NCBI GenBank assembly: GCA_903845055.1
Contig: CAIMWF010000040.1
Location: 54,508 to 118,507, forward strand
DNA: 64,000 nt
Direction: 5' to 3'
From: an uncultured Bacteroidales bacterium
Lineage (GTDB): Bacteria; Bacteroidota; Bacteroidia; Bacteroidales; FEN-979
The notes beneath the pieces were generated by a model. The model had not been told where the DNA came from and did not search any database. It saw nothing but the letters and a program-made list of their open reading frames with translations. The position numbers were made by a program, and so were the translations under genes. How positions within the stretch are numbered: position 1 is the stretch's first letter; each line of letters starts with the position of its first letter. Of this stretch, positions 45,235 through 64,000 are shown one piece after another.

Positions 45235-47073
45235 TTATTCGCGGACCATCCTCTGGGTGAAGAGCTGGCCGTCGATGTTCACGGTGATAAGGTAGAAACC
45301 CTGCGCAAGGCTGCTGCAGTCGAGCGTGACGGCATGGGCGCCGGCAGCCATGCTGCCATTTTCGGAGTACATGACCTGGTTTCCTGCAAGGTTGGTGACC
45401 TTAACACTGACGCGACCCGTGCGGGCAAGGGAGATGTTGAAACTGGCCTTGCTGGTCACCGGGTTGGGATAAACCTGGCTCACCCGGGTTTCGTCAGAAA
45501 CAGCGTTGTTGTCGATACCGACCGGGAAGAAATCGGTCCCTGTAAGTTCGCGGTAGGTAACGCTGACATCATGCACCGGGATGGTGGTATCCTGGATGTT
45601 CGAGCCCGGCTGCGAAGAGGTCTGGAAGATCAGGGGGATGGTGCTGTTGTTCTTCACCCGTGCAGCAGTGGCTGGGTAGACGAACTCCTGGAAAATATAG
45701 AGAAACCCGGCGTTCCAGTCGACCATATCCCTGAAGGCATTCACGCTGTGTTTCAGAACCCGTCCCCAGATATGGCGGTAGTTCAGCGGTGTGGGATCGG
45801 GGTTGCCGACGGTGATGCCCGACCAGATGAAATAGATGTTCTGGGCAGGGTCGATGACGATGCGCGGGAAGGAGCTCAGCCCCACACCATATTTGGGAAA
45901 GCCCACAATTGAATCACCGGCCAGGTCGGTGGCCACATAACCAACCAGCTGATGGTGCGCATCCAGGGTATCCAGGTTGCTTAACCGGGTGGTATCGATG
46001 ACCGGCATGCTTTCATTCCAGTAAACCAGGCCATCGGTACCGGGGTAATAATACCGGCTTGTTCCGTCGCAGTTCACGCGCATCCTGCCAAAGGCAACAT
46101 GCGCCTTGCCTGTGTTGTCAAGCTGGATGGCTCCCGAACCATCGCTGCACCAGAAAACCGGCACCACGGTGGCGGTGGTTGACATTTTATAAGGGTTGTT
46201 GAAAAAAACCTTCTTGGTCCAGGTGGCGCCGTTGTCAAACGACTTCATGACGTAACCGTCCGACCAGCTGCCAACGACCACGAAAGCGATCGTGTCGCCG
46301 TGGGGTGCTGCCCAGGTGTAATCATCGCCTGTGTAACCTGATCCGTCGGCCGAAGTCATTCCCGGGAGGACGATCCCCTGTTTGTCCCAGGTGACACCAC
46401 CGTCAAGCGAGCGGAAATAGAGCAGTGCATCGCTCAGCCCCTGGTAGTTGGACTGGCCGATGGCAAGTACATGAACATACTGGTGGTTGCTGCCACTGGT
46501 GATGACACTGGGCCATAATAAGGCCGTAACGCCTGTGGGTCCTGTCGGGGCCGTGGATTGAGTCCACGCGCCGGTGCCTCTTACCGGGCGGGTGTTCATG
46601 ATCAGGGTTGCGGTTGAATTATGCGCGAAGTTGATCTCGCCGTTGCCGTTCCAAGGATTGACATTCGTCCAGCCGGTGCGGGTGGTTTCCACGCGTGCGG
46701 TCGGGGCTGCATTCCATGTCGTGCCATTGTAATAATTATATCCGGTTCCGCGGTCACTGTAACCGGCGGCGTCAAGCTCGCCATAGATCCAGGTGGCAGT
46801 AACCGCATTATCGGGCCACAGGTAGATGCGGCTCATGATGCAGCCGTTGGTCTGGTTGTCGTAACGGGAACCACCGATCACATCATCGGTCACATTTTTC
46901 GTACTGCTGACAGTGGTATTCGAGGTTTTGAGCGGCAGTTCAGCCTGCCCGTTGTATTTTTCTGACCTTACGGCCTTGTCCCGCAGGGAGCGGGAGATCA
47001 ATGCCCTGCCCGGTTGTGCAATTGCCGGAATCGTCAGGGTGACAATGATGAACGCCAGTAAAAGTTTCTTCAT
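45235..47073 (-). CDS. Asp-box (BNR) T9SS type A sorting-domain protein
   Basis: A 612-residue secreted protein: signal peptide (about 1-19), a central beta-propeller-like region with two clear Asp-boxes (SLDGGVTWDK, SFDNGATWTK) and aromatic-rich strands, and a C-terminal T9SS sorting domain (about 530-612) that begins VYPNPVTSKASFNI and ends QLFTQRMVRE. The Asp-box fold is shared with sialidases and other sugar-binding or lytic proteins; no catalytic set is evident, so it may be a binding protein. It is exported and attached to the cell surface by T9SS. It has its own TAAGTTTG box about 40 bases upstream. A copy of its gene end lies downstream. Confidence 0.85.
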   Translation of the reverse strand: MKKLLLAFIIVTLTIPAIAQPGRALISRSLRDKAVRSEKYNGQAELPLKTSNTTVSSTKNVTDDVIGGSRYDNQTNGCIMSRIYLWPDNAVTATWIYGELDAAGYSDRGTGYNYYNGTTWNAAPTARVETTRTGWTNVNPWNGNGEINFAHNSTATLIMNTRPVRGTGAWTQSTAPTGPTGVTALLWPSVITSGSNHQYVHVLAIGQSNYQGLSDALLYFRSLDGGVTWDKQGIVLPGMTSADGSGYTGDDYTWAAPHGDTIAFVVVGSWSDGYVMKSFDNGATWTKKVFFNNPYKMSTTATVVPVFWCSDGSGAIQLDNTGKAHVAFGRMRVNCDGTSRYYYPGTDGLVYWNESMPVIDTTRLSNLDTLDAHHQLVGYVATDLAGDSIVGFPKYGVGLSSFPRIVIDPAQNIYFIWSGITVGNPDPTPLNYRHIWGRVLKHSVNAFRDMVDWNAGFLYIFQEFVYPATAARVKNNSTIPLIFQTSSQPGSNIQDTTIPVHDVSVTYRELTGTDFFPVGIDNNAVSDETRVSQVYPNPVTSKASFNISLARTGRVSVKVTNLAGNQVMYSENGSMAAGAHAVTLDCSSLAQGFYLITVNIDGQLFTQRMVRE

Positions 47074-49247: not shown

Positions 49248-52200
49248 ATGAGCAGAAAATATCGCGCCCGGATTATATTTTTCCTCGTCTGTTTCGTTCT
49301 GCCGGCTATCCATGTCCTGGCAGAGGGCTCCAAAGAGATCTACATCACCACCCACAACACGAGCCTATACCTGTGCAACGACTTCGCCGGCAAATGCAAC
49401 ACCACGCCTCCCTTCAACGGAAACCGCACGCAGTTTGCCATATACGGCTGCGCGGAAGTGGACCGGATGTACTTTGTAAAATTACACCTGTCGGAGGTGA
49501 TCTACCTGGGTTTTAACGGCAGCAACGCCGGCAACAACAACCACATCGTTTTCGAAATCAAGAACCTCGCCGGTACGGTCGTCTATCCCGAAACCACGCT
49601 GCCTGCTTCCGGAACCGGTTTTATCGCCAACATCGGCCAGGCCAGGGTCGGGCCGAACCAGATATACACCACGGGGGGATACACCGCCATCGACTTCCAC
49701 CCTGCCGACACCGGGATGTATTACATCGAATTCACCAAGAAAAACACCTCCAACACCGTTGTCACCGGGAATTTCAATATTGACTTCTTCGATGTTACCC
49801 TGTATGATACCGTCAGCCACCAAGTATACCCCGGCAGGCTCTATTCAAAATCGTGGCAGTTCCAGGAACAGTCGGGATGTTCGGCAAAGACCTATGTTTA
49901 TTCCAACGACAGCATCATCACCTCCTGCACCTTCAACAACCTGGGCGGCGGGGTGTGGGTGCAATACTGCAACCAGACCGGGTGTGCAAATACCGGCAAT
50001 TTCCCGGTTGACCGGAAATCCCTTTATAACCTCCAGGCATTGCTTCCTGAATTCAGGGTATTTTTAAATTTTCCCGATGTCACCCTCTTTCCGCCTGCCA
50101 CGGTGCTGGGCGCTGTGGTCGCCCCCCTGCCCTGGGGCGACCGAAACTGCCTTACGGGGCATGTCCTTTTTCATGTCAATGTGAACAAACCCGGCAAGGT
50201 AACGATCCTCCTTACCTTCGGGGGGGGCTATACCCCCATCACCCTCACCATCACCAACGCGGTGGTCGGGGAGAACATTTTCGACTGGAACGGCCTCGAC
50301 GGGGCCGGGCTTGCCGTTCCCAACAACACCTCCATCACCTTCACCGTGAGTTATATAAACGGCCTTACCAACCTGCCGCTTTACGATGTGGAGACAAACT
50401 CAAACGGGTTTACCATCAGCCTCGAAAGTCCGACCGGGGCGCAGGTGACCTCCTACTGGGACGACACGAACATCCCGGGCGGCATAAACAACTCCGTTAC
50501 CGGGTGCGCAACCCCACCCTGCCATTCATGGGGGAACAACTGGGGTAACCTGAACACGGTCAACACTTGGTGGTACAACGTATCCTCCTCCATCACGCAA
50601 CCCCCGATTTTCGAGTTCCGGAATCCCGGCACCCTGACCTTCCAGCAGACACCACCCCAAAATTACTGCGAAAACACTTCAGGCCACGTGTTTTCAGTGG
50701 CACTTGACCCCAATACCGATGTCTACCACTGGAGTTATACCCCTTCAACAGGTGTGACCCTCGTGCCCAGCGGCAACAGCGTTACCGTAAGTTTCGGGCC
50801 GGGTGCCACCTCGGGGACCCTCAGCGTTTACGGTACCAATACCAACTGCGCCACACAGGGCCCAACCTCAACGCTTGCCATTACCATCAGTGCTGCACCC
50901 CTGCCGGTCATCATAGGCCCGGGATCGGTGTGCGTCGGATCCACCGGGAATTCATATGCGACCCAGACCGGGATGACAGGATACTTCTGGACCATTTCTC
51001 CGGGGGGTACGATCAACAACGGCCAGGGAACCAGCGATGCCCACGTGACCTGGAACACACAAGGGGCAAATACCATTTCGGTATCCTACACCAACAGCAA
51101 CGGTTGTGCTGCGGCCTCCCCGACCTCCTTCCCGGTAACGGTTCATGCGCTCCCAACCCCTACCATCACAGGGCTGCCGAGTGTCTGTGAAGGAGCTTCA
51201 TCCATCACCTATACCACCGAAACGGGAATGTCGGGATACGTCTGGACCGTCTCTTCGGGTGCTACCACCACCGCCGGCGGCACAGGCTTCGACTTCATCA
51301 CGCTCACCTGGACCACTGCCGGGATCCACACGCTGTACGTCAATTACACCGACGGTTTCGGCTGTACCGCCCTTGTTCCCTCCCAGACGACTGTTACGGT
51401 AAACCAGCTTCCCAACGTGACCTTTACCTACAATACCCCGGGCAGTTGCTCCGGCGTGCCCCTGAACATCCAGCTTTCGTCGAATGTTGCCGGCGCCAGC
51501 TTCAGCTGGACCGCCACGGGCAGCTCGGGAAATGTCTCCCCGCAATTTACCGCGGGCACCGGCGACATCACCATCCCCTTCATCAATTCGGGAACCGCCA
51601 TCGAAAACGTGGTATTTTCGGTCGTTCCGTCTGCCGTTGGCTGCTCGCCGGGATCACCGTTCTTGTCCAACCCTGTCCCGATCTACCCGGTTCCCGATCT
51701 TATCGTAACCCCCGCCACCCTTACCGTATGTTCCAATGCCCAGGCCAGTATTTCCCTGAGTTCAGTTGTCCAGAACACGACCTATTCATGGACTGCTACC
51801 GGCGGTACCGGCATCACGCCGGCTACGGTGAACGGTGTCGGAAATATCGCTGAAACCTTCCAGAATTCCGGGAATACGCCCGCAACGGTCAGCTTCGCCA
51901 TCGTGCCTTCCGCCAATGGCTGCAGCAACAATGCCACGGTTCCCTACCTGCTTACCGTCAACCCGAAACCGGGGGTGGTATTCCCGCCCGTCCCGGCCAA
52001 CCCGCAAACCATCTGTTCGGGAACGGCTTCGGCAGCGGTCAACCTCCAGTCGACCGTCAGTTTGCCTGTCATCACCTATGCATGGACGGCAGCAGGTTTC
52101 GACCCGGTCAACCCGACCGGCAGCATCAACGGTTTTACCGCTTCGAACAGCGGCAACACCATCCCGGGTGAGACCATCACCAGCACCCTCCTCGGGCCGG

Positions 52201-54242
52201 GCGTGGTCAAATACGAGGTAACGGCAACCTTTACCAGTGGCGGGGCAACCTGCCCCGGTGATCCCTCCGAATACCAGGTCGTGGTGAACCCTGCCCCCAT
52301 CGTGTCGCTCACGCCGGTCAACCCGGTCGGCCAAACCATATGTTCAGGTACCAGCAGCACCGCCATCACCTTTTCTCCCAATGTCACCCCGGTATCCTAT
52401 GTGTGGCAGGCGGTCGAAGTGGTGGGGATCAATCCCCCCGTCATGAACGGGGTCTCCTCCTCCATCCCGGCACAGGTACTCACCGTGACCGGCGCGGTGC
52501 AGGGACATGTCAAGTACAAGGTCACCCCGACCTTCCTCGGCAGTGGCAGCAACTCCTGCCTGGGGGCCGATTCCTACTCCACCATTTTTGTGAACCCGCT
52601 CCCGTCGCCGCTGATCACCAGCACCTCGCCGCAAACGGTTTGCGAACTGCAGACCAACGTCCTCTATTCAACCCCGGCCATCGCGGGCAACTCCTATTCC
52701 TGGACCGTGACCGGCTCGGCATCCGTGACCAACGCAAATACCCATGCCGTTACAGTGAACTGGGGGCCCTATACCGCGTCGCCCGGCACCGTAACCGTTA
52801 CCGAAACGATCACCGCCACCGGCTGCCAGGTCACCACCCCCGCCTTCCCGGTGACCCTCCAGCAGCGGCCCGTGCCCACCCTGACCGGCACCCAGACCGT
52901 GTGCGACGGAACCTCCGGCGTGCTTTACCAGACCGAACCGCTCATGTCGAACTACACCTGGTCGATCGCCGGCGGATCGATCACCGCAGGCGGCGGAAAT
53001 GCGAGCAATACAGCTGTTGTTACCTGGAATACGCCCGGAGCCCAGTGGATCCAGGTGAATTATGTCAACGGGCTCGGATGCCCCGGTTTCCCGGCCAAAC
53101 AGATCACCGTTACGGTGAACCCGTTGCCGGTCTCCGCCATTTCGGAGGGACCCGGAGCGGTTTGCGACCAGCAGGCCCATAATTACAACACCGCAGCCGA
53201 TGCGGCTTCCACCTTTACATGGTCGGTCATTCCATCCGCCAGCGGGGCGGTGACCACCGGCCAGGGTACCAACGCCATCACCGTGGGATGGCTTGCAAGC
53301 GGGAATGCCACCCTGGCGCTCACCGTCACCAAAACCTCCAGCGGATGCTCCACCAGTTCAACCTACGCGGTACTGGTCCATCCCACCCCGGCGCCGGCTT
53401 TTTCGGCATGTTTCGACGTCAAGACCACCCTCAGCGCCAAAAAATTCACCCTGAAGGGCGGAACGCCATACCTCAACGGGCAGGGGGTGTATTCCGGCAA
53501 CCGGGTCAGCTACAACGCTGGTAGCGGGATGTATGAGTTTGATCCCTTCGGCGCAAGCACCGGGAATTACAACATTACCTACACCTATACCAACACCTTT
53601 GGCTGCGCAGCCTCCACCCCCGCCGTGACCATCACCGTATTCAGCAATGCCTTTGCCTGCAACGGCGATCTGACCGATGTCAGGGACGGCAAAAAATACA
53701 AGACCTCGCTGATCGGCGGGAAATGCTGGATGCGCGAGAATCTCGCCTACGGCACGGTGCTCGACCCGGCCATCCCACAAACCGACAACTGCATCAGCGA
53801 AAAATACTGCCTCACCACCGACCCCACCTGCACCACCTACGGCGGGCTTTACCAGTGGGATGAACTGCTTGCCTACGCCTCCACTTCGGCCGGGCAGGGC
53901 TTGTGCCCTCCCGAATGGCACATCCCCACCGAGGCCGAATGGCAGGCGATGATCGATGCGATCGTTGCCGGGGTCATCCCGCCCGTTGATGGTTTCGGCG
54001 GCAGTTTCCTCAAGGATAACTTCCTGAATCCTGGTTTCCGTGCCCTCACCAGCGGCATCTACTACCTGAACAACACCTGGGCCTTTACCTCCGGGACACT
54101 GACGGGAACCCAGTACTGGAGCTCAACCACCGCAACCCCCACCCGGGGCGTGGCAAGGGGTGTCAACCTCATCAACCCCAGCATTTCGAAATACCAGGGA
54201 AGCAGGGGGAATGCGTTTTCGGTGAGGTGCGTGAAGGATTAG
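49248..54242 (+). CDS. Large PKD-like surface protein with C-terminal FISUMP domain (first paralogue)
   Basis: A 1664-residue exported protein: signal peptide (about 1-26); an N-terminal unique region (27-457) rich in Cys, Tyr and Asn; about ten PKD/Ig-like beta domains of 85-105 residues (458-1384), each with one Cys near the start (SVCVG, SVCEG, TICSG, TVCEL, TVCDG, AVCDQ) and one near the end; a GQGVYSGNRVSY-containing domain (1385-1470); and a FISUMP domain (1471-1664; VRDGKKYKTSLIGGKCWMRENLAYG, QYWSSTT, FSVRCVKD). The Cys pairs probably form disulfides outside the cell. FISUMP proteins are poorly understood and may be adhesins. No T9SS sorting domain is seen, so surface anchoring may be by other means. 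The next gene is a paralogue. Confidence 0.88.
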   Translation: MSRKYRARIIFFLVCFVLPAIHVLAEGSKEIYITTHNTSLYLCNDFAGKCNTTPPFNGNRTQFAIYGCAEVDRMYFVKLHLSEVIYLGFNGSNAGNNNHIVFEIKNLAGTVVYPETTLPASGTGFIANIGQARVGPNQIYTTGGYTAIDFHPADTGMYYIEFTKKNTSNTVVTGNFNIDFFDVTLYDTVSHQVYPGRLYSKSWQFQEQSGCSAKTYVYSNDSIITSCTFNNLGGGVWVQYCNQTGCANTGNFPVDRKSLYNLQALLPEFRVFLNFPDVTLFPPATVLGAVVAPLPWGDRNCLTGHVLFHVNVNKPGKVTILLTFGGGYTPITLTITNAVVGENIFDWNGLDGAGLAVPNNTSITFTVSYINGLTNLPLYDVETNSNGFTISLESPTGAQVTSYWDDTNIPGGINNSVTGCATPPCHSWGNNWGNLNTVNTWWYNVSSSITQPPIFEFRNPGTLTFQQTPPQNYCENTSGHVFSVALDPNTDVYHWSYTPSTGVTLVPSGNSVTVSFGPGATSGTLSVYGTNTNCATQGPTSTLAITISAAPLPVIIGPGSVCVGSTGNSYATQTGMTGYFWTISPGGTINNGQGTSDAHVTWNTQGANTISVSYTNSNGCAAASPTSFPVTVHALPTPTITGLPSVCEGASSITYTTETGMSGYVWTVSSGATTTAGGTGFDFITLTWTTAGIHTLYVNYTDGFGCTALVPSQTTVTVNQLPNVTFTYNTPGSCSGVPLNIQLSSNVAGASFSWTATGSSGNVSPQFTAGTGDITIPFINSGTAIENVVFSVVPSAVGCSPGSPFLSNPVPIYPVPDLIVTPATLTVCSNAQASISLSSVVQNTTYSWTATGGTGITPATVNGVGNIAETFQNSGNTPATVSFAIVPSANGCSNNATVPYLLTVNPKPGVVFPPVPANPQTICSGTASAAVNLQSTVSLPVITYAWTAAGFDPVNPTGSINGFTASNSGNTIPGETITSTLLGPGVVKYEVTATFTSGGATCPGDPSEYQVVVNPAPIVSLTPVNPVGQTICSGTSSTAITFSPNVTPVSYVWQAVEVVGINPPVMNGVSSSIPAQVLTVTGAVQGHVKYKVTPTFLGSGSNSCLGADSYSTIFVNPLPSPLITSTSPQTVCELQTNVLYSTPAIAGNSYSWTVTGSASVTNANTHAVTVNWGPYTASPGTVTVTETITATGCQVTTPAFPVTLQQRPVPTLTGTQTVCDGTSGVLYQTEPLMSNYTWSIAGGSITAGGGNASNTAVVTWNTPGAQWIQVNYVNGLGCPGFPAKQITVTVNPLPVSAISEGPGAVCDQQAHNYNTAADAASTFTWSVIPSASGAVTTGQGTNAITVGWLASGNATLALTVTKTSSGCSTSSTYAVLVHPTPAPAFSACFDVKTTLSAKKFTLKGGTPYLNGQGVYSGNRVSYNAGSGMYEFDPFGASTGNYNITYTYTNTFGCAASTPAVTITVFSNAFACNGDLTDVRDGKKYKTSLIGGKCWMRENLAYGTVLDPAIPQTDNCISEKYCLTTDPTCTTYGGLYQWDELLAYASTSAGQGLCPPEWHIPTEAEWQAMIDAIVAGVIPPVDGFGGSFLKDNFLNPGFRALTSGIYYLNNTWAFTSGTLTGTQYWSSTTATPTRGVARGVNLINPSISKYQGSRGNAFSVRCVKD

Positions 54243-54275
54243 AGGTAGCGAGGTAGCGAGGTAGCGAGGTAGCGA
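54242..54275. repeat. 8-bp tandem repeat (GAGGTAGC) after the first FISUMP gene
   Basis: GAGGTAGC is repeated four times plus GA, starting in the last base of the TAG stop codon at 54242. Downstream, to 54451, there are only ATTGCCTGTTGCC-type repeat fragments and a TTTACAATGGGATATTTTACCT region with no clear -7 box. Confidence 0.8.
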
Positions 54276-54451
54276 AATTTTGAAGATAGACGGATGCTGC
54301 CTGCTTTTTATTGCCTGTTGCCTGAACAGGGTGTTCATTGAAAATTACTGCTTCCTTTGTTAGGGTATGAAAAAAATTGTACTTTTACAATGGGATATTT
54401 TACCTTAGCCGGTTATCGCGAAAATCATTCGTTCCTTTTGACCTTTTTTCT

Positions 54452-57400
54452 ATGAAAAAACACCTTTACCCATTCATTTTTCCCTGTCTTATTTTCCTGG
54501 TTTTCCTGAATGTTTTATTGGTTTCAACCGTCGCAAAGGGGCAGGCGAACGATACAACATTATCAGCCAAAGGTTTGAAACCTGTTGAAACGCTTACACC
54601 TGCTGAAACCGAAACACGAGGGGACACTGTTCCCTTTGTTGACGGGGTCCGGGTAGAACCCGATCCGTCGGTAAATATCCAGCCCTATGTGGAGACCGTC
54701 CGGCCCAGGCCGGCAACGAGCAATTATTATCTTGGAAAGCAGTTGGCGCCGGTTATGGATACTACCAATTTCTTTCACTACACGACCCCCCTGAACCTGG
54801 TTACTGCCTGCAATAACTCGGATTTTTCCTTAGGAAACTGGACCAACTGGATCGGATGTTATGGAACATTTTCAGGAAATCCCCCCGGTCAACCCATTGT
54901 ATTTGCACCATGCACCACTCCAGGATTCAGTTCTACCCGTCATGTCATCATGCCTATCAGCGGCTGGACGTATGATCCGTATATCGGTGGGACCTCATTA
55001 TCCACGGTATTTCCAGGGGAAACTCATTCTGCCCGACTTGGTGATGTTACTGGTGGCGGGCATGCGGAACAATTAAAATACAATGTTACGGTGAACTCAA
55101 GTAACTATCTTTTCGTTTACAGGTGGGCAGCGGTCCTTGAGTCATACGGGCATACACCACCCATGATGCCCAGGTTTACCCTGCAGGTTCAGGATCTAGC
55201 CGGGAACCCCCTGGGTGATTCCTGCGGCTATTATGAATATACAGCTCCGACCTGTGCTCCTCCCGGCCCGGGTTGTATTGTACCCATTGATTGGCAATAC
55301 CATCAATACAGTTCAAGTGTTAAGCTTTATTGGCATGATTGGACGACTGTAGCACTTGACCTTACTCCATTTCAATCCCTTGGGACCGTGCAAATTGTTT
55401 TCACTACCCGGGGATGTTCCCAATCAGCCCACAGGGGATATGCCTATATTTCAACCTATTGCAGTTCACTCATCGTACAAACTTCTCTCTGTATCGGTGC
55501 AACACAGGCAATCCTTACAGCCCCGCCGGGTTTTGCCACATATTTATGGAGTACCGGGGAAACGACTCCCTCCATAACTATTTTGAATCCGCTGGATGGC
55601 GACCAATTTTGGGTCGATGTCACGTCTAACAACGGATGTACCGCTCACATCACCAACGTACTTCATTTCACAACACCAATCGCTGCTTTTACACATGGAA
55701 GCGCCTGTGCCGGAATGTCCACCTCCTTCTTTGATCAAAGTACCATTAACCAGAACCAGATTGTAGGTTGGGACTGGGACTTTGGGGATGCATCTCCGAT
55801 TGATCACAACAAAAATCCGACGCATGTATTCGCAACCGGCAACACCTATAATGTAACGTTAACAGTACATTCAACGGAAGGATGTACAAATTCGGTTATG
55901 ATTCCGGTCCTGGTGAACCCGTTTCCTACAGTAAATACAGTGCCAAACCAGAACGTATGCAACCAGGATAATACAAATCCAATAACTTTTTCAAGTTCTC
56001 TTCCGGGCACTACCTACACCTGGACAAACAGCAATACAACGATCGGGCTGGCCGCAAGCGGCATTGGAGACCTGCCTGGTTTTACCGCTCTCAACACCAC
56101 AACTGCTCCCGTTGTCGCCACCATATCCGTGATTCCGAATCAAAATGGCTGTATCGGGCCTCCCTATAATTTTACAATTACAGTTAATCCGTTTCCGGTA
56201 TTGACAAACGGCCCGCACGCACCTGTCTGCTCGGGAGCACCTTTCAATGTCACCCTTACGTCAGGCACTGCGGGAGCTAATTTTACCTGGACAGCTTTCT
56301 GTACTCCTGTTGGTGCCGTGACCGGTTTTACAGGGACACAAGTTGTAAAGGTTACTGTAATCAACGATATACTTACGAATGTAACAACAGATCCTGCTAC
56401 CGTCACCTACCATATCACTCCATTTGCCAATGGTTGTACTGGAATTCCCTCTGATTACACAGTGACGGTTTACCCCAGTGTAGTGGTTACCAGTGCGGCA
56501 ACCGCCAATTGGTGCAGCGGTGTTTCCAATACCTACACCTCAACCTGCAGTACCACCACGCCTGTCCCGACCTATACGTGGACCAGGGCTTCGGTACCAG
56601 GGATCACCCCGGCCACCGGTGCCGGTAGTGGCGCCGCCATCACTGAAATGCTGACAAATTCTACCCCAGATCCGCTTATTGTCACTTACATAATCACCCC
56701 GACTGTGGGCGGCTGCACAGGAACCCCGAAAAATGTAGCTGTGACCGTTGACCCTCTTGCAATTGTCAGCAGCCAGGCTTCAGTTAAATGGTGCAACGGG
56801 ATGCCTAACACCTACAACATCACCAGCACCAGCACATCGCCCCCCCCTGCCTATGCATGGTCAAGGGCCGCCGTGGCCGGGATTTCGCCTGCAACTGCTG
56901 CGGGGACCACCGATTTCATTACCGAAACGCTCGTGAATTCAACCACCGAGCCGGTCGTGGTGCACTACCTGATCACCCCGTCGGTAAACGGCTGCACCGG
57001 GATTCCTTTCGACCTTTCGGTTACCGTCGATCCGACATCGGTTGTTACAAGCCCGGTTACCGCCAACTGGTGCAACAATGTGGCGAATACTTACAACATC
57101 ACCAGCAGCACAGTCTCCGCTTCGCTGACCCTTGCCTGGACCAGGGCCGCTGTGGCCGGGATTTCCAATCCATCCAACGCGGGCACAGGGGCCACGATTA
57201 CCGAAACCCTGGTGAACACCACAACCGATCCGGTGGTGGTTACTTACATGATCACACCAACGGTCGACAACTGCACCGGTATCCCGCTGGCGGTGAATGT
57301 TACCGTGAACCCCACGGCCGTCATCACCAGCCCGGCAACGGCAAACTACTGCAACGGCGTGACGATGACCTACAACATTACCAGCAACAGCACCACGCCT

Positions 57401-60400
57401 GCACCTAACTATGCATGGAGCAGGGCCGCCGTAGCGGGCATCCTCAACCCGGCAGGTTCCGGGGTTGGCTCCGCCATCACCGAAACCCTGGTCAACACAA
57501 CGACCGACCCCATCGTCGTCACCTACCTGATCACCCCCACGGTCAACAACTGCGACGGAACGGTGAAAAACGTACTGGTAACGGTGAACCCGACGGCCGT
57601 GATCACCAGCGCCCCCTCGGCCAACTGGTGCAACAACACCCCGAACACCTATAACATCACCAGCAGCAGCATTGCCCCACCGCCAGTCTTTACATGGAGC
57701 AGGGCGGCTGTTACCGGCATTTCGAACCTGGCAAATTCCGGAACAGGCAACGCCATCACCGAAACATTGGTCAATACAACCCCCGACCCGGTGGTTGTCT
57801 CCTATGTGATCACCCCGACGGTAAACGGCTGCGCGGGGACCCCTTCGACCATTTCTGTCACGGTCAACCCCACTTCGGTGGTTACCAGCCCCGCCACGGC
57901 CAACTGGTGCAACAACACCATGACGACATACAATATCCTGAGCAGCAGCTCCGCCCCGTTGCCAACCTTCGCTTGGAGCCGGGCCGTGGTTGCCGGGATT
58001 TCCAACGTTGCCGGCTCAGGCTCCGGGAACTCCATTTCCGAATCCCTCAACAACACAACGCCCAACCCGGTGATCGTCACCTACCTCATCACGCCGAACG
58101 TGAACGGGTGCAACGGAACCCCCTTCAACCTCCTGGTTACCGTTAACCCGACGGCCGTGATCACCAGCGCGGCGACTGCCAACTGGTGCAACGGCGCTTT
58201 GGGAACCTACAGCATCACCTCCGCCAGCACCACCCCTCCCCCCACCTATGCCTGGACCCGCGCGGCGGTTGCCGGCATCACCCCTGCCACGGGGGCAGGC
58301 ACGGGGAATTCGATCTCTGAAACCCTGACCAACGCAACCCCCGACCCGATCACGGTCAGTTACGTGATCACACCCACCGTCAATGGTTGCGACGGTACCG
58401 TGAAAACGATCGCAGTCACCGTCAATCCCACGGTCGTGATCACCAGCGCGGCAACCGCCAACTGGTGCAGCAACGTTGTAAACACCTATAATATCACCAG
58501 CAACAGCACAACCCCTCCACCGGGATATACCTGGACGCGGGCTGCGGTTCCCGGCATCACGCCTGCCACCGGCGCCGGTTCGGGAAATTCCATTTCGGAA
58601 ACCCTGGTGAATGCAACCACCGACCCCATCGCCGTGACCTACCAGGTCATCCCGGCTGTGAACGGCTGCCCGGGCACCACGAAAACGGTGACGGTCACCG
58701 TGAACCCGACCGCCGTCGTCACCAGCCCGGCCTTGGCCAACTGGTGCAACAATACCCCCTCCACATACAACATCACCAGTTCCAGCACCACGCCGCCACC
58801 GGTTTTTACCTGGACGCGGGGAGCCGTGGCAGGGATCACCCCGGCCATTGGCTCGGGGACGGGCAACTCCATCAATGAAACGCTTACGAACGGCACGCCC
58901 AACCCAATCGTTGTCAATTACGCGATTACCCCAACGGTAAACGGCTGCGCCGGCACGGTGTATAATGTGTCGGTTACCGTCAATCCCACAGCGGTGGTCA
59001 CCAGTACCGCCACTGCCAACTGGTGCAACAATCTCAGCAACACCTACAACATTACCAGCAGCACCACCTCCACAACACCGGTTTACGCCTGGTCAAGGGC
59101 GGCAATACCGGGGATCACCCCCGCAACAGCCTCCGGTTCAAGTGCCGCCATCACCGAGACGCTGGTCAATTCGACCACCGACCCGATCGTGGTGAACTAC
59201 GTGATCAACCTTTCCGTCAACGGATGCCCCGGAACCCAGCAAACCGTCGCCGTGACAGTCAACCCCACGGCGGTAATCACCAGCCCGGCGACCGCCAGCT
59301 GGTGCAACAATACCTCAAATACCTACAACATCCTCAGCAGCAGCACGACCCCTCCGCCAACCTATGCATGGTCAAGAGCCGTCGTGGCGGGGATCAGCAA
59401 CGGGGCGAATGCGGGCGCCGGCAACTTCATAACCGAAACCCTCAACAATACGACGCCTAACCCGGTCGCAGTGACCTATGTGATCACACCCACGGTTAAC
59501 AGCTGCGCCGGGACAACCAAAAACGTGGTGGTGACCGTCAACCCCACCGCCCTGATCACCAGCGCGGCAACCGCCAACTGGTGCAACAACGTGATGACCA
59601 CCTACAACATCCTCAGCAGCAGTACCACGCCGCCCCCCACCTACACCTGGACGCGCGCTGCAGTGACCGGTATTTCCAATGCCGCGGGTGCCGGAGCAGG
59701 ATCCTCCATTACCGAGGCCCTGGTCAACACCACCACCGATCCGGTGGCGGTTACCTATGTCATCACGCCCAGTGTCAATGGCTGCATCGGCACCATCCAG
59801 AATGTCGTCGTTACCGTAAACCCGACGGCGGTGATCACCAGCCCTGTCACAGCAAACTGGTGCAACAACGTCTCCAATTCCTATAACATTACCAGCAGCA
59901 GTTCCACGCCTCCCCCGGTATTTACCTGGACCAGGGCCGCGATGCCGGGAATCACCCCCGCAACCGGTGCCGGTACCGGTATAACCATCACCGAAACCCT
60001 GCTCAATGCAACCACCAATGCAATCGTGGTGACCTATGTGGTGACCCCCACGGTGAATGGCTGTGCAGGAACGTCCCAGAACGTTGCAGTAACGGTGAAC
60101 CCGTCGGCCATCATCACCAGCCCGGCGACTGCAAACTGGGCCAACAATGTATCGAACACCTATAATATCACCAGCAGCACAACCACACCCGTTCCCGTCT
60201 ATTCCTGGACCCGGGCGGCGGTTGCGGGGATCACCCCGGCCACCGGTGCAGGGGTGGGACCGGCAATCACCGAAACGCTGGACAATTCGACCACCAACCC
60301 CATCGTCGTTCATTATATCATCACGTTCACGGTCAACGGATGCCCGGGAACCACCTTCGACCTGGCTGTAACCGTGAATCCCACTTCGGCGATCACCAGC

Positions 60401-63400
60401 CCCCCGACCGCCAACTGGTGCAACAATACGACGAACACCTACAACATCACCAGCAGCACCGTACCCACCCCCGACTATTCGTGGACCCGGGCGGCCGTAC
60501 CGGGGATCTCGAATCCGCCGGGAGCCGGCATCGGCGCCACCATCACCGAAACCCTGGTAAACACCACACCCGATCCCGTGGTAGCGACCTACGTGATCAC
60601 ACCCTCCATTAACGGATTCCCGGGAACTCCGGCATTCGTGGCCGTAACCGTAAATCCCACCGCGGTGATCACCAGCCCGGCAACCGCCAACTGGTGCAAC
60701 AGCATACTGAACTCTTATAGTATCACGAGCAGCAGCACCCTCCCGCCGCCGGCCTATACCTGGACCAGGACCGCCGTAGCCGGGATCACCCCGGCAACAG
60801 GCTCAGGGACCGGGACGCCCCTCACCGAGACCCTGGTGAACGGGACGGTCAACCCGGTCGTGGTTTCCTACCTCATCACTCCTTCGGTGAACGGCTGCGA
60901 CGGGACCCCGAAAACCATCTCCGTCACCGTGAATCCGACGGCCGTCATCACCAGTCCGCCCACCGCCAACTGGTGCAACGGCATCCAGGGAACCTACAAC
61001 ATCACCAGCAGCAGCAACGCCCCCACACCCTCCTACTCATGGACAAGGGCTGCCATGCCGGGGATCACGCCGGCGACCGGGGCAGGCGCCTCCGCCACCA
61101 TCCAGGAGACCCTTACCAATGCAACCACCGACCCCATCGTGGTTCATTACCTGGTGACCCCGACGGTGAACAGCTGCACCGGGACCGTTTATGATGTAGC
61201 GGTTACGGTCAACCCGACGGCCGTGATCACCAGCGTCCCCACCGCCAACTGGTGTAACAGCGTCGTGAATACCTATAATGTGACCAGCAGCAGCGCCAAC
61301 CCGCCCCCGGCATATTCATGGACCAGGGCAGCCGTTGCAGGGATTACCCCGGCGACCGGCGCAGGGGCCGGCGCTGCGATCAGCGAAACGCTCATCAATT
61401 CAACCACCGACCCGATCGTGGTGAGTTATGTCATCACCCCCTCGGTGAATGGCTGTACCGGGACTCCAAAGACGATCAACGTTACGGTAAACCCGACTGC
61501 GGTGGTTACCAGCCCGGCGATTGCAAACTGGTGCAACAACACCTCCACCACCTATAACATTACGAGCAGCAGCACCACCCCGCCGCCAGTCTTTACCTGG
61601 ACCCGGGCTGCCGTGGCAGGGATCACACCGGCTACAGGCGCGGGCTCGGGCAACGCCATCACCGAAACACTTACAAATGCCACCACCGACCCGCTCGTGA
61701 TCAGCTACGTGGTCACCCCTACCGTGAACGGCTGCGCCGGAACACCGAAGAACATATCCGTAACGGTCAACCCGACGGCCGTGATCACCAGCCCCGCCAC
61801 CGTGGCATGGTGCAACAATGTCATGAACACCTACAACATCACCAGCAGCAGCACGGCTCCGCCCCCGGGATACAACTGGACCAGGGCCGTGGTGGCCGGC
61901 ATTTCGAATGCAGCAGGCGCAGGTGCAGGTAATTCCATCATCGAAACCCTTGTGAACACGACCACCGGCCCGGTGACGGTGACCTATGTGATCACCCCCA
62001 CGGTGAACGGCTGCACCGGCACAGTGAAAAATGTCGCTGTTACGGTCAACCCCACACCGCACCTGATGAACACGGCGCCGTTGCCCATCTGTTCGGCAGC
62101 CACCTTCAATGCAACGCTGCTACCCGATGTGACCGGCGGCAACTTTACCTGGACCGCCTCCTGTTCCCCCGCTGGTTCAGTCACCGGCTTTACCACACCC
62201 CAGCTTACCGGCACCACCACCATCAACGATGTGCTTACAAACTCCGTCAACATACCGGCAACCGTCACTTACGCAATAACACCCGCCGCAAACGGGTGTC
62301 TCGGGGCCGTGACAAACTATGCGGTCATCGTTTACCCGGTGCCCAACATCTCCTGCCTGGCGGGACAGTCCATATGTTCAGCCACTGCAACAGCCCCGGT
62401 TACCCTGAATTCAACGGTTACCGGCACGGTCTATTCCTGGTCGGCAGCCTGCCCGGTCGGCAGCGTGAATCCCTGCCCGGTAATTCCCGGCATCGCAAAC
62501 CCGATCCCGGCCACCAGTTTCACGAATGTGACCAACGTCCAGCAAACGGTGACCTATACCATCACCTCCGCTTATAACGGATGTCCCGGCACGACCACCA
62601 CCCACGTGGTGACGGTCAATCCAAACGCGACGGTGACCAACTGGCCGCTCGACCAGACCATTTGTTCCGGCGGCTCAAGCATCCAGGTTAATCTTACCTC
62701 GAATGTAACCGGGGCAACCTATGCATGGACCGCTTCGACTATCTCGCCCATTACAGGCTTTACAACGACCGGGAGTGACCACATCCCCATCCAGAACCTC
62801 TTCATCCCTCCCGGCAACACCGGGTTTGTGAACTACCATATCACCCCGATATTCACCAGCGGACCGACCTGCCCCGGGACCTCCGCCGACTACAAGATCA
62901 ACGTCAACCCATTGCCGACCCCGGTCATCAGCGGGAATACCCTTGTTTGTGAATTGCAGCCGAATGTCACCTATACCACCCCATCCGTTCCCGGTCATTC
63001 CTATCTCTGGAACGTAACAGGAGCATCCAGCGTGACCAATGCCACCACCAACACCGTGACGGTGACGTGGGGACCCTACACCGCTTCGCCTGGCACCCTG
63101 TCGGTGACCGAGACGATCGATGCAACCGGGTGCCTGCAAACCACCTCAACCTATTCGGTGACCCTACAGCAAAGGCCCATCCCCTCCCTGACGGGTCCGC
63201 AGACGGTTTGCGACCAGTCCTCGGGCAATGTATACCAGACCGAAGCGGGCATGTCAACCTACACCTGGTCCATCAACGGCGGCAGCATCATGACGGGCGG
63301 CGGAAACGGAAGCCCGACGGCCACCGTCACATGGAACACCCCGGGCACCCAGTGGATCCAGGTCAACTATGTCAACAGCCTCGGATGCCCCGGTTACCCG

Positions 63401-64000
63401 GCCAAACAGATCCCGGTCCTGGTCAATGTGCTGCCGACGGTGACCATCACCGAAGGCACCGGGCCGAACTGCGAAAGCGCCACCCACTCGTACGATGTTC
63501 CTCCCGACCCCCTGTGCTCCTATGCCTGGTCGATCGTACCGGCAGGACGGGGATTCATCTCCCTGGGACAGGGAACGAACAGCATCAATGTCGACTGGCA
63601 GACCGCCGGCGCGGCAACCATCGCGGTCACGGGGACCAACAATTCAACGACCTGCGTTGCATCTTCGACCCACCTGCTGACGATCCACCCGAAACCACTG
63701 CCAACCTTCACGCCCTGTTTCGACCAGATTACGACTTCGGGTGCGAAAAAGTTCATCCTGCGCGGCGCTTCCCCCATTCTTGCCGGCCAGGGCGTATTCT
63801 CGGGTGGCAGGGTGAGTTTTAACGCCCTCACCGGGAACTATGAATTTGATCCTTACGGGGCCGGGATCGGCAGTTACCCGATCACCTACACCTTCACCAA
63901 CAATTACGGATGCGTCAACAGCGCCGGGCCGGTTGCCATCAGCATTGTAAACAGCAGTTTCAGCTGCGGCGGACTCCTTACCGATGTCCGTGACGGCAAA
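54452..64000 (+). CDS. Giant repeat surface protein with FISUMP start at window edge (second paralogue, partial)
   Basis: An open frame from ATG 54452 to the window end with no stop (3183 codons seen), missed by the ORF track because it has no stop in the window. The signal peptide is about 1-31. A unique N-terminal region follows, then a true PKD domain (WDWDFGDASPI...YNVTLTV, about 410-490), two PKD-like domains (491-675), twenty 93-residue modules (676-2534), a domain like the one before the array (APLPICSAATFNATL), and then the same C-terminal modules as the preceding gene (VCELQ, VCDQS, NCESATHSY, GQGVFSGGRVSF), ending at TDVRDGK as a FISUMP domain starts. The gene is therefore an expanded paralogue. 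The first 2 kb is AT-richer than the array. Confidence 0.9.
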   Translation, partial: MKKHLYPFIFPCLIFLVFLNVLLVSTVAKGQANDTTLSAKGLKPVETLTPAETETRGDTVPFVDGVRVEPDPSVNIQPYVETVRPRPATSNYYLGKQLAPVMDTTNFFHYTTPLNLVTACNNSDFSLGNWTNWIGCYGTFSGNPPGQPIVFAPCTTPGFSSTRHVIMPISGWTYDPYIGGTSLSTVFPGETHSARLGDVTGGGHAEQLKYNVTVNSSNYLFVYRWAAVLESYGHTPPMMPRFTLQVQDLAGNPLGDSCGYYEYTAPTCAPPGPGCIVPIDWQYHQYSSSVKLYWHDWTTVALDLTPFQSLGTVQIVFTTRGCSQSAHRGYAYISTYCSSLIVQTSLCIGATQAILTAPPGFATYLWSTGETTPSITILNPLDGDQFWVDVTSNNGCTAHITNVLHFTTPIAAFTHGSACAGMSTSFFDQSTINQNQIVGWDWDFGDASPIDHNKNPTHVFATGNTYNVTLTVHSTEGCTNSVMIPVLVNPFPTVNTVPNQNVCNQDNTNPITFSSSLPGTTYTWTNSNTTIGLAASGIGDLPGFTALNTTTAPVVATISVIPNQNGCIGPPYNFTITVNPFPVLTNGPHAPVCSGAPFNVTLTSGTAGANFTWTAFCTPVGAVTGFTGTQVVKVTVINDILTNVTTDPATVTYHITPFANGCTGIPSDYTVTVYPSVVVTSAATANWCSGVSNTYTSTCSTTTPVPTYTWTRASVPGITPATGAGSGAAITEMLTNSTPDPLIVTYIITPTVGGCTGTPKNVAVTVDPLAIVSSQASVKWCNGMPNTYNITSTSTSPPPAYAWSRAAVAGISPATAAGTTDFITETLVNSTTEPVVVHYLITPSVNGCTGIPFDLSVTVDPTSVVTSPVTANWCNNVANTYNITSSTVSASLTLAWTRAAVAGISNPSNAGTGATITETLVNTTTDPVVVTYMITPTVDNCTGIPLAVNVTVNPTAVITSPATANYCNGVTMTYNITSNSTTPAPNYAWSRAAVAGILNPAGSGVGSAITETLVNTTTDPIVVTYLITPTVNNCDGTVKNVLVTVNPTAVITSAPSANWCNNTPNTYNITSSSIAPPPVFTWSRAAVTGISNLANSGTGNAITETLVNTTPDPVVVSYVITPTVNGCAGTPSTISVTVNPTSVVTSPATANWCNNTMTTYNILSSSSAPLPTFAWSRAVVAGISNVAGSGSGNSISESLNNTTPNPVIVTYLITPNVNGCNGTPFNLLVTVNPTAVITSAATANWCNGALGTYSITSASTTPPPTYAWTRAAVAGITPATGAGTGNSISETLTNATPDPITVSYVITPTVNGCDGTVKTIAVTVNPTVVITSAATANWCSNVVNTYNITSNSTTPPPGYTWTRAAVPGITPATGAGSGNSISETLVNATTDPIAVTYQVIPAVNGCPGTTKTVTVTVNPTAVVTSPALANWCNNTPSTYNITSSSTTPPPVFTWTRGAVAGITPAIGSGTGNSINETLTNGTPNPIVVNYAITPTVNGCAGTVYNVSVTVNPTAVVTSTATANWCNNLSNTYNITSSTTSTTPVYAWSRAAIPGITPATASGSSAAITETLVNSTTDPIVVNYVINLSVNGCPGTQQTVAVTVNPTAVITSPATASWCNNTSNTYNILSSSTTPPPTYAWSRAVVAGISNGANAGAGNFITETLNNTTPNPVAVTYVITPTVNSCAGTTKNVVVTVNPTALITSAATANWCNNVMTTYNILSSSTTPPPTYTWTRAAVTGISNAAGAGAGSSITEALVNTTTDPVAVTYVITPSVNGCIGTIQNVVVTVNPTAVITSPVTANWCNNVSNSYNITSSSSTPPPVFTWTRAAMPGITPATGAGTGITITETLLNATTNAIVVTYVVTPTVNGCAGTSQNVAVTVNPSAIITSPATANWANNVSNTYNITSSTTTPVPVYSWTRAAVAGITPATGAGVGPAITETLDNSTTNPIVVHYIITFTVNGCPGTTFDLAVTVNPTSAITSPPTANWCNNTTNTYNITSSTVPTPDYSWTRAAVPGISNPPGAGIGATITETLVNTTPDPVVATYVITPSINGFPGTPAFVAVTVNPTAVITSPATANWCNSILNSYSITSSSTLPPPAYTWTRTAVAGITPATGSGTGTPLTETLVNGTVNPVVVSYLITPSVNGCDGTPKTISVTVNPTAVITSPPTANWCNGIQGTYNITSSSNAPTPSYSWTRAAMPGITPATGAGASATIQETLTNATTDPIVVHYLVTPTVNSCTGTVYDVAVTVNPTAVITSVPTANWCNSVVNTYNVTSSSANPPPAYSWTRAAVAGITPATGAGAGAAISETLINSTTDPIVVSYVITPSVNGCTGTPKTINVTVNPTAVVTSPAIANWCNNTSTTYNITSSSTTPPPVFTWTRAAVAGITPATGAGSGNAITETLTNATTDPLVISYVVTPTVNGCAGTPKNISVTVNPTAVITSPATVAWCNNVMNTYNITSSSTAPPPGYNWTRAVVAGISNAAGAGAGNSIIETLVNTTTGPVTVTYVITPTVNGCTGTVKNVAVTVNPTPHLMNTAPLPICSAATFNATLLPDVTGGNFTWTASCSPAGSVTGFTTPQLTGTTTINDVLTNSVNIPATVTYAITPAANGCLGAVTNYAVIVYPVPNISCLAGQSICSATATAPVTLNSTVTGTVYSWSAACPVGSVNPCPVIPGIANPIPATSFTNVTNVQQTVTYTITSAYNGCPGTTTTHVVTVNPNATVTNWPLDQTICSGGSSIQVNLTSNVTGATYAWTASTISPITGFTTTGSDHIPIQNLFIPPGNTGFVNYHITPIFTSGPTCPGTSADYKINVNPLPTPVISGNTLVCELQPNVTYTTPSVPGHSYLWNVTGASSVTNATTNTVTVTWGPYTASPGTLSVTETIDATGCLQTTSTYSVTLQQRPIPSLTGPQTVCDQSSGNVYQTEAGMSTYTWSINGGSIMTGGGNGSPTATVTWNTPGTQWIQVNYVNSLGCPGYPAKQIPVLVNVLPTVTITEGTGPNCESATHSYDVPPDPLCSYAWSIVPAGRGFISLGQGTNSINVDWQTAGAATIAVTGTNNSTTCVASSTHLLTIHPKPLPTFTPCFDQITTSGAKKFILRGASPILAGQGVFSGGRVSFNALTGNYEFDPYGAGIGSYPITYTFTNNYGCVNSAGPVAISIVNSSFSCGGLLTDVRDGK
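56477..62053 (+). repeat. Array of twenty 93-residue modules in the giant surface protein
   Basis: The module runs about VITSPATANWCNN, SNTYNITSSSTTPPP, YxWTRAAVAGITPATGAG, ITETLVNTTTDPVVVTYVITP, VNGCxGTPKNVAVTVNP. Tryptophan (or Tyr/Trp) codons of WC recur at 56510, 56789, 57068, 57347 and so on to 61808. The step is 279 bases every time, except 276 between 60416 and 60692. Two subtypes (GITPATGAG and GISNxxGAG) alternate in irregular order. All modules have the WC and GC cysteines except modules 14 (WA) and 15 (GF). Confidence 0.95.

Follow-up and report, generated by a model that had tools for sequence, protein, structure and literature searches.

The last ten kilobases of the window (the whole stretch of 64,000 nucleotides analysed here, from an uncultured member of the Bacteroidales that lives in a lake) raise the question of what kind of protein is encoded by a reading frame that opens at 54452 on the + strand, meets no stop before the sequence ends and holds twenty tandem modules of nearly uniform length. 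The first-pass annotation had described the frame as open from 54452 to 64000 (3183 codons), which our analysis confirmed, with zero stops found, and had treated its absence from the ORF track as an oddity. That absence proved to be an artefact of the listing rather than a property of the gene. The end of the 64-kb window is also the end of its contig, C40 (118507), and the gene was missing from a listing of closed ORFs because its frame runs past that end. When open ends were allowed the listing gave 54377..64000, marked '3open'.

The missing 3' end is carried by a second contig of the same genome, C146. The final 141 bases of the window match one end of C146 exactly, no overlap other than 141 bases fits among lengths of 100-399, and by its length the overlap looks like the k-mer overlap of an assembler. 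Joining C40 to C146 gives a complete gene, 54452-64558 in joined numbering, that encodes 3,368 aa and has a FISUMP domain at its C-terminus, as had been expected of the array's end. The join is independently backed by G037, a genome from another species of the same genus, in which a single contig carries relatives of both flanks in matching order. As the genome is metagenome-assembled and repeats readily misassemble, the giant frame might be suspected of being an artefact of assembly or collapse, but the DNA identity between modules is just 59-76%, far below what a collapse needs, and the same design is found on a single contig in the syntenic ortholog of the other species. We regard the artefact reading as refuted in the main and extremely improbable, although the number of modules might yet shift.

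The encoded protein consists, in order, of a signal peptide, an N-terminal region of ~300 aa, a PKD_4 domain, 25 PKD_5 domains, PKD_6 domains and FISUMP. The features in the window are as follows.

49248-54242, + strand: upstream paralog of 1664 aa, with signal peptide, six PKD_6, five PKD_5 and FISUMP
54452-64000, + strand: giant gene, 5' 3183 of 3368 codons; the contig end cuts the gene, and the stop codon lies at 64558 after the join
54452-54547, + strand: signal peptide, type I as judged by eye, a long hydrophobic stretch to ...AKGQA without a lipobox
54752-55651, + strand: N-terminal region, aa 101-400, without a Pfam match of its own
55673-55894, + strand: PKD_4 domain (PF18911), aa 408-481, from Pfam
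55913-56467, + strand: two pre-array PKD_5 domains of 90 and 95 aa, from Pfam
56468-62044, + strand: core array: twenty PKD_5 modules, all of 93 aa except one of 92 aa at 60374-60649
62045-62902, + strand: three post-array PKD_5 domains of 95-96 aa, each with a single ortholog among those of G037
62903-63960, + strand: three stretches matching PKD_6 (PF19408) plus a linking domain; identity to the syntenic ortholog is 75%
63961-64000, + strand: start of FISUMP (PF09603/TIGR02145), the remainder being on contig C146:39421-39948

Only the ~13 first FISUMP residues (SCGGLLTDVRDGK) thus fall within the window. The start of the signal peptide, MKKHLY..FPCLI, is common to the giant and its syntenic ortholog.

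The module had been taken to belong to no named family. It is in fact Pfam PF19406, PKD_5, which matches the protein in 25 stretches with 624 bits against a cut-off of 25; because the E value is 2.1e-192, the array is not a chance likeness. Two of these domains lie ahead of the core array, 20 within it and three behind. The spacing reported for the core, a 279-base step with a single 276-base exception, was reproduced exactly over 56468-62044 (19 units of 93 aa and one of 92 aa).

The suggestion that the modules are PKD/Ig-like in style was supported by structure prediction. The best of five models of a module pair had a mean pLDDT of 94 (three of the five were at 55-60) and placed every strand within two beta-sandwiches, so the modules are predicted to fold as tandem Ig-like beta-sandwiches. 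A Foldseek search of the PDB with the pair returned Ig and Fn3 tandems from titin and from cell-adhesion molecules, together with the neck, base and fragments of GhpA from Aureispira (TMq 0.43-0.54, 18-22% identity), many other Ig tandems being comparable. A broad PKD_5 profile run against PDB sequences failed to find GhpA even at E 10, and a second profile gave none at E<=1; any likeness to GhpA would therefore be one of fold only. No solved structure closely related to the module by sequence was found.

Each module was said to have a WC and a GC cysteine. The two cysteines are indeed general, although three exceptions occur within the array: Y replaces W in the module at 57305 (1 of 20), and two modules each lack one cysteine. 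A survey took in 507 PKD_5 modules, drawn from 88 reading frames in this genome and its relatives: C occupied the first cysteine column in 499/500 cases and the second in 497/498, counts that may be slightly flattering as the detecting profile favours cysteine. The only two cysteine substitutions among the 507 modules are both in the window gene and in adjacent modules. The module at 60095-60373 has A for the first cysteine (codon GCC at 60140), and that at 60374-60649, which is also the sole 92-aa unit, has F for the second (TTC at 60617). The two cysteines left over in 60095-60649 face one module junction and are 26 residues apart in sequence. This paired loss may reflect either a bond between modules or a locally relaxed constraint; either fits. 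Elsewhere the near-invariance of the pair suggests one disulfide per module, which would join Cys16 to Cys83.

The strict unit length had been attributed to an array either held or copied under length control. The strict length stands; recent copying does not. Mean identity between core modules is 64% for residues and 67% for bases, and residue identity is flat with distance between modules, with a slight drop at the largest separations. Where modules share a residue with a four-fold degenerate codon, the third base was equal in 41% of cases; codons picked at random would give 37%. Since third positions at these sites are nearly randomised, the module copies are old, and recent copying is ruled out by this result together with the flat identity. 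The uniform length is more likely to be held by constraint from the fold. Codon selection against recombination was likewise not seen, the observed third-position identity being slightly above random rather than below it. A phage origin was considered and rejected, as a tblastn search with two modules gave no match in phage records.

The giant does not stand alone. It is the second of six consecutive + strand genes, all FISUMP-ended, that encode proteins of 1664, 3368, 1834, 2159, 1832 and 1224 aa, the last four lying on contig C146 (L087). The six putative rods differ in length and in N-terminal region. Between the first two genes, at 54244-54276, is an octamer tandem repeat, GGTAGCGA, of about 4 copies, just past the stop of the 1664-aa gene and ~175 bases before the giant gene; a 20-mer of this repeat has 19 further occurrences at about 13 places in the genome and none in a reversed control. 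The window also contains, at 45235-47073 on the - strand, a gene for a 612-aa protein that combines weak BNR/Asp-box matches with a type A sorting domain of the T9SS, a relative of which was not found on the syntenic G037 contig.

That contig (C336) carries in order a tricorn-type protease, a PMT_2 protein, a lyase, an extra FISUMP giant, genes of 1667, 2947, 1913 and 1224 aa, and a relative of the gene at 87023; the syntenic set therefore has one additional giant ahead of the first. C-terminal to the array, the window giant and its G037 ortholog are 73-77% identical, and in a tree of modules each of the last three PKD_5 domains of one protein is paired with its counterpart in the other. Between the two arrays, identity is just 32%, compared with 64% (window core modules) and 71% (G037) within each gene. 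In the same tree, which was built on 97 columns and leaves many of its inner forks undecided, G037's 95-aa modules cluster with the modules flanking the window gene's array; the 20 core modules of the window gene instead cluster with modules from G031 and G010, the latter grouping having good support (100/97). These groupings and the low identity between arrays indicate that, at one and the same position of the gene, the two lineages multiplied different founder modules to a similar number. As judged from sequence comparison, the N-terminal regions are mosaic as well: the best relatives of the giant's region are in G036 and G018 (65-67%), the syntenic ortholog reaching just 36%. Relatives within the genus span 36-67% identity, two of them with a weak Ig_7 match at the region's end; a scan of genome contigs with the region gave no match.

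PKD_5 was found in 39/41 genomes sampled from the family, with 1 to 97 matches each and often in arrays. A search of related genomes for arrays like that of the giant was successful, the arrays having 8-27 PKD_5 copies and a uniform unit of 91-96 aa. Each module of the giant is a clear PF19406 member like those of other PKD_5 arrays of Bacteroidota, but the 93-aa units form a subtype of their own (WC...NGC), nearest to the arrays of G031 and G010. Named FISUMP relatives are nearly all from uncultured Bacteroidales or Bacteroidetes, many of them lake-derived. The giant is an ordinary, though large, example of a trait of this bacterial family.

The C-terminal domain, read from C146, matched TIGR02145 with 106.3 bits (cut-off 41.65, E 2.9e-30) and PF09603 with 77.7 bits (cut-off 33.9), and its match to Lcl_C, the former DUF1566, was just below the cut-off (33.1 bits against 34.9, 7.4e-08). 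The giant thus shares a C-terminal FISUMP with other FISUMP/Fib_succ_major proteins and differs from them in the long PKD_5/PKD_6 rod ahead of it. A paralog's FISUMP was modelled with low confidence (pLDDT 65). Foldseek ranked 4EPS, a fimbrial protein (pilin) of Bacteroides, first for this model at E 0.13, with several C-type lectins beneath, and none of the matches passes E 0.001. DUF1566 and Fib_succ_major have been described as similar, both being C-terminal variable domains of proteins targeted by diversity-generating retroelements (DGRs), some of which have Ig-like domains, and a DUF1566 variable protein was compared with 4EPS (PMC4159848). The giant's head belongs to this same class of C-terminal domain, but no match to the reverse transcriptase family PF00078 was detected in this 95% complete genome, whereas the controls did match. 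DGR diversification of the head is accordingly rejected: the giant shares the type of head with the DGR targets, but nothing points to its diversification by a retroelement.

The genome has 26 FISUMP matches, 25 of them over the cut-off. In this high number of paralogs it resembles Fibrobacter, with 17-119 per genome (PMC4704652), and Ornithobacterium hominis, in which a quarter of the many FISUMP paralogs also have a predicted Ig-like fold (PMC6421346). The genome also has small, stand-alone FISUMP proteins (L062, L067 and L068) that bear a lipobox, judged by eye, and are hence lipoprotein-like.

How the giants cross and are anchored to the outer membrane is less readily explained. The genome encodes the T9SS translocon SprA (2595 bits), yet neither a type A (TIGR04183/PF18962) nor a type B (TIGR04131) sorting domain was detected in the giant, whose C-terminus gives only FISUMP at E<=1. 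Such domains are lacking on all the giants, whereas the 612-aa neighbour has type A. Inspection by eye of aa 1-40 showed no lipobox cysteine after the signal peptide, nor was one seen in the other giants. One could suppose that FISUMP-ended giants form a separate export class in which FISUMP doubles as an outer-membrane sorting or anchoring signal replacing the T9SS domains, and that the locus is a 'length-graded' set of fibres with fixed ends and arrays rebuilt from different founders; this is a speculative scheme to which we give little credence.

We propose, with a probability of about 0.65, that the giant is an exported, rod-like surface protein in which the array is a spacer that holds a C-type-lectin-like FISUMP head for ligand binding. 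The signal peptide would lead the protein into export, the PKD_5 array, stiffened by one disulfide per module, would hold the head tens of nanometres off the cell, and the head would bind a ligand such as a glycan, a particle or other cells. An Ig-like domain is ~4 nm long, and 20-25 of these would thus give an extended rod of about 80-100 nm. The architecture, family membership, tandem cluster, synteny and near-invariance of both cysteines are seen directly in the sequences, and the Ig-like fold of the modules is a computed prediction; the disulfides, the extended shape, the role of the head and adhesion are inferred. The presence of SprA speaks for the proposal, whereas the weak FISUMP model, the three low module models and the lack of a sorting domain and of a lipobox speak against it. 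Searches for PF19406 and FISUMP in the literature library used returned no functional study.

Two other functions were weighed. The rod might be a filament for motility or prey capture, driven or flung out by the gliding/T9SS machinery in the manner of Flavobacterium SprB or Aureispira GhpA. The phylum is the same, SprA is present, and the giant size is in keeping with such a filament. SprB, the 6497-aa gliding adhesin of Flavobacterium johnsoniae (PMC9870892), is a giant surface protein of a T9SS-bearing member of the Bacteroidota, and GhpA of Aureispira sp. CCB-QB1 (PDB 9flp, 9flw, 9fly), a giant Bacteroidota surface protein with tandem Ig-like domains, scored among the top structural hits for the module pair. 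However, the sorting domain that T9SS substrates carry was not detected here, the matched fold is common to many unrelated Ig-like proteins, and the PKD_5-wide profile misses GhpA in the PDB. Unlike GhpA, the giant ends in FISUMP, and no sign of hooks or predation was seen. We judge a role of this type to be quite unlikely. Alternatively, the rods could be released and build up a biofilm matrix or a sheath outside the cell; FISUMP would then serve to assemble them, in the manner of a cohesin, instead of binding a ligand. The lack of a recognisable anchor and the differing lengths of the six paralogs are consistent with such a coat, and the Fibrobacter domain has been suggested as a possible cohesin analogue (PMC4704652). 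Nothing specific contradicts a coat, although the lipoprotein-like character of the small stand-alone proteins fits cell-bound heads; we consider a matrix role unlikely. The most likely identity of the giant is a putative stalk-type adhesin of the cell surface, with FISUMP as its C-type-lectin-like head.

The locus adds a fully resolved tandem of six giants to an abundant class of putative surface proteins of the Bacteroidota. Orthologous rods have kept their C-terminal part, while their spacer array has been made anew from another founder module and has reached a comparable count of units. Selection may therefore act on the length of the array more than on the sequence of its modules.
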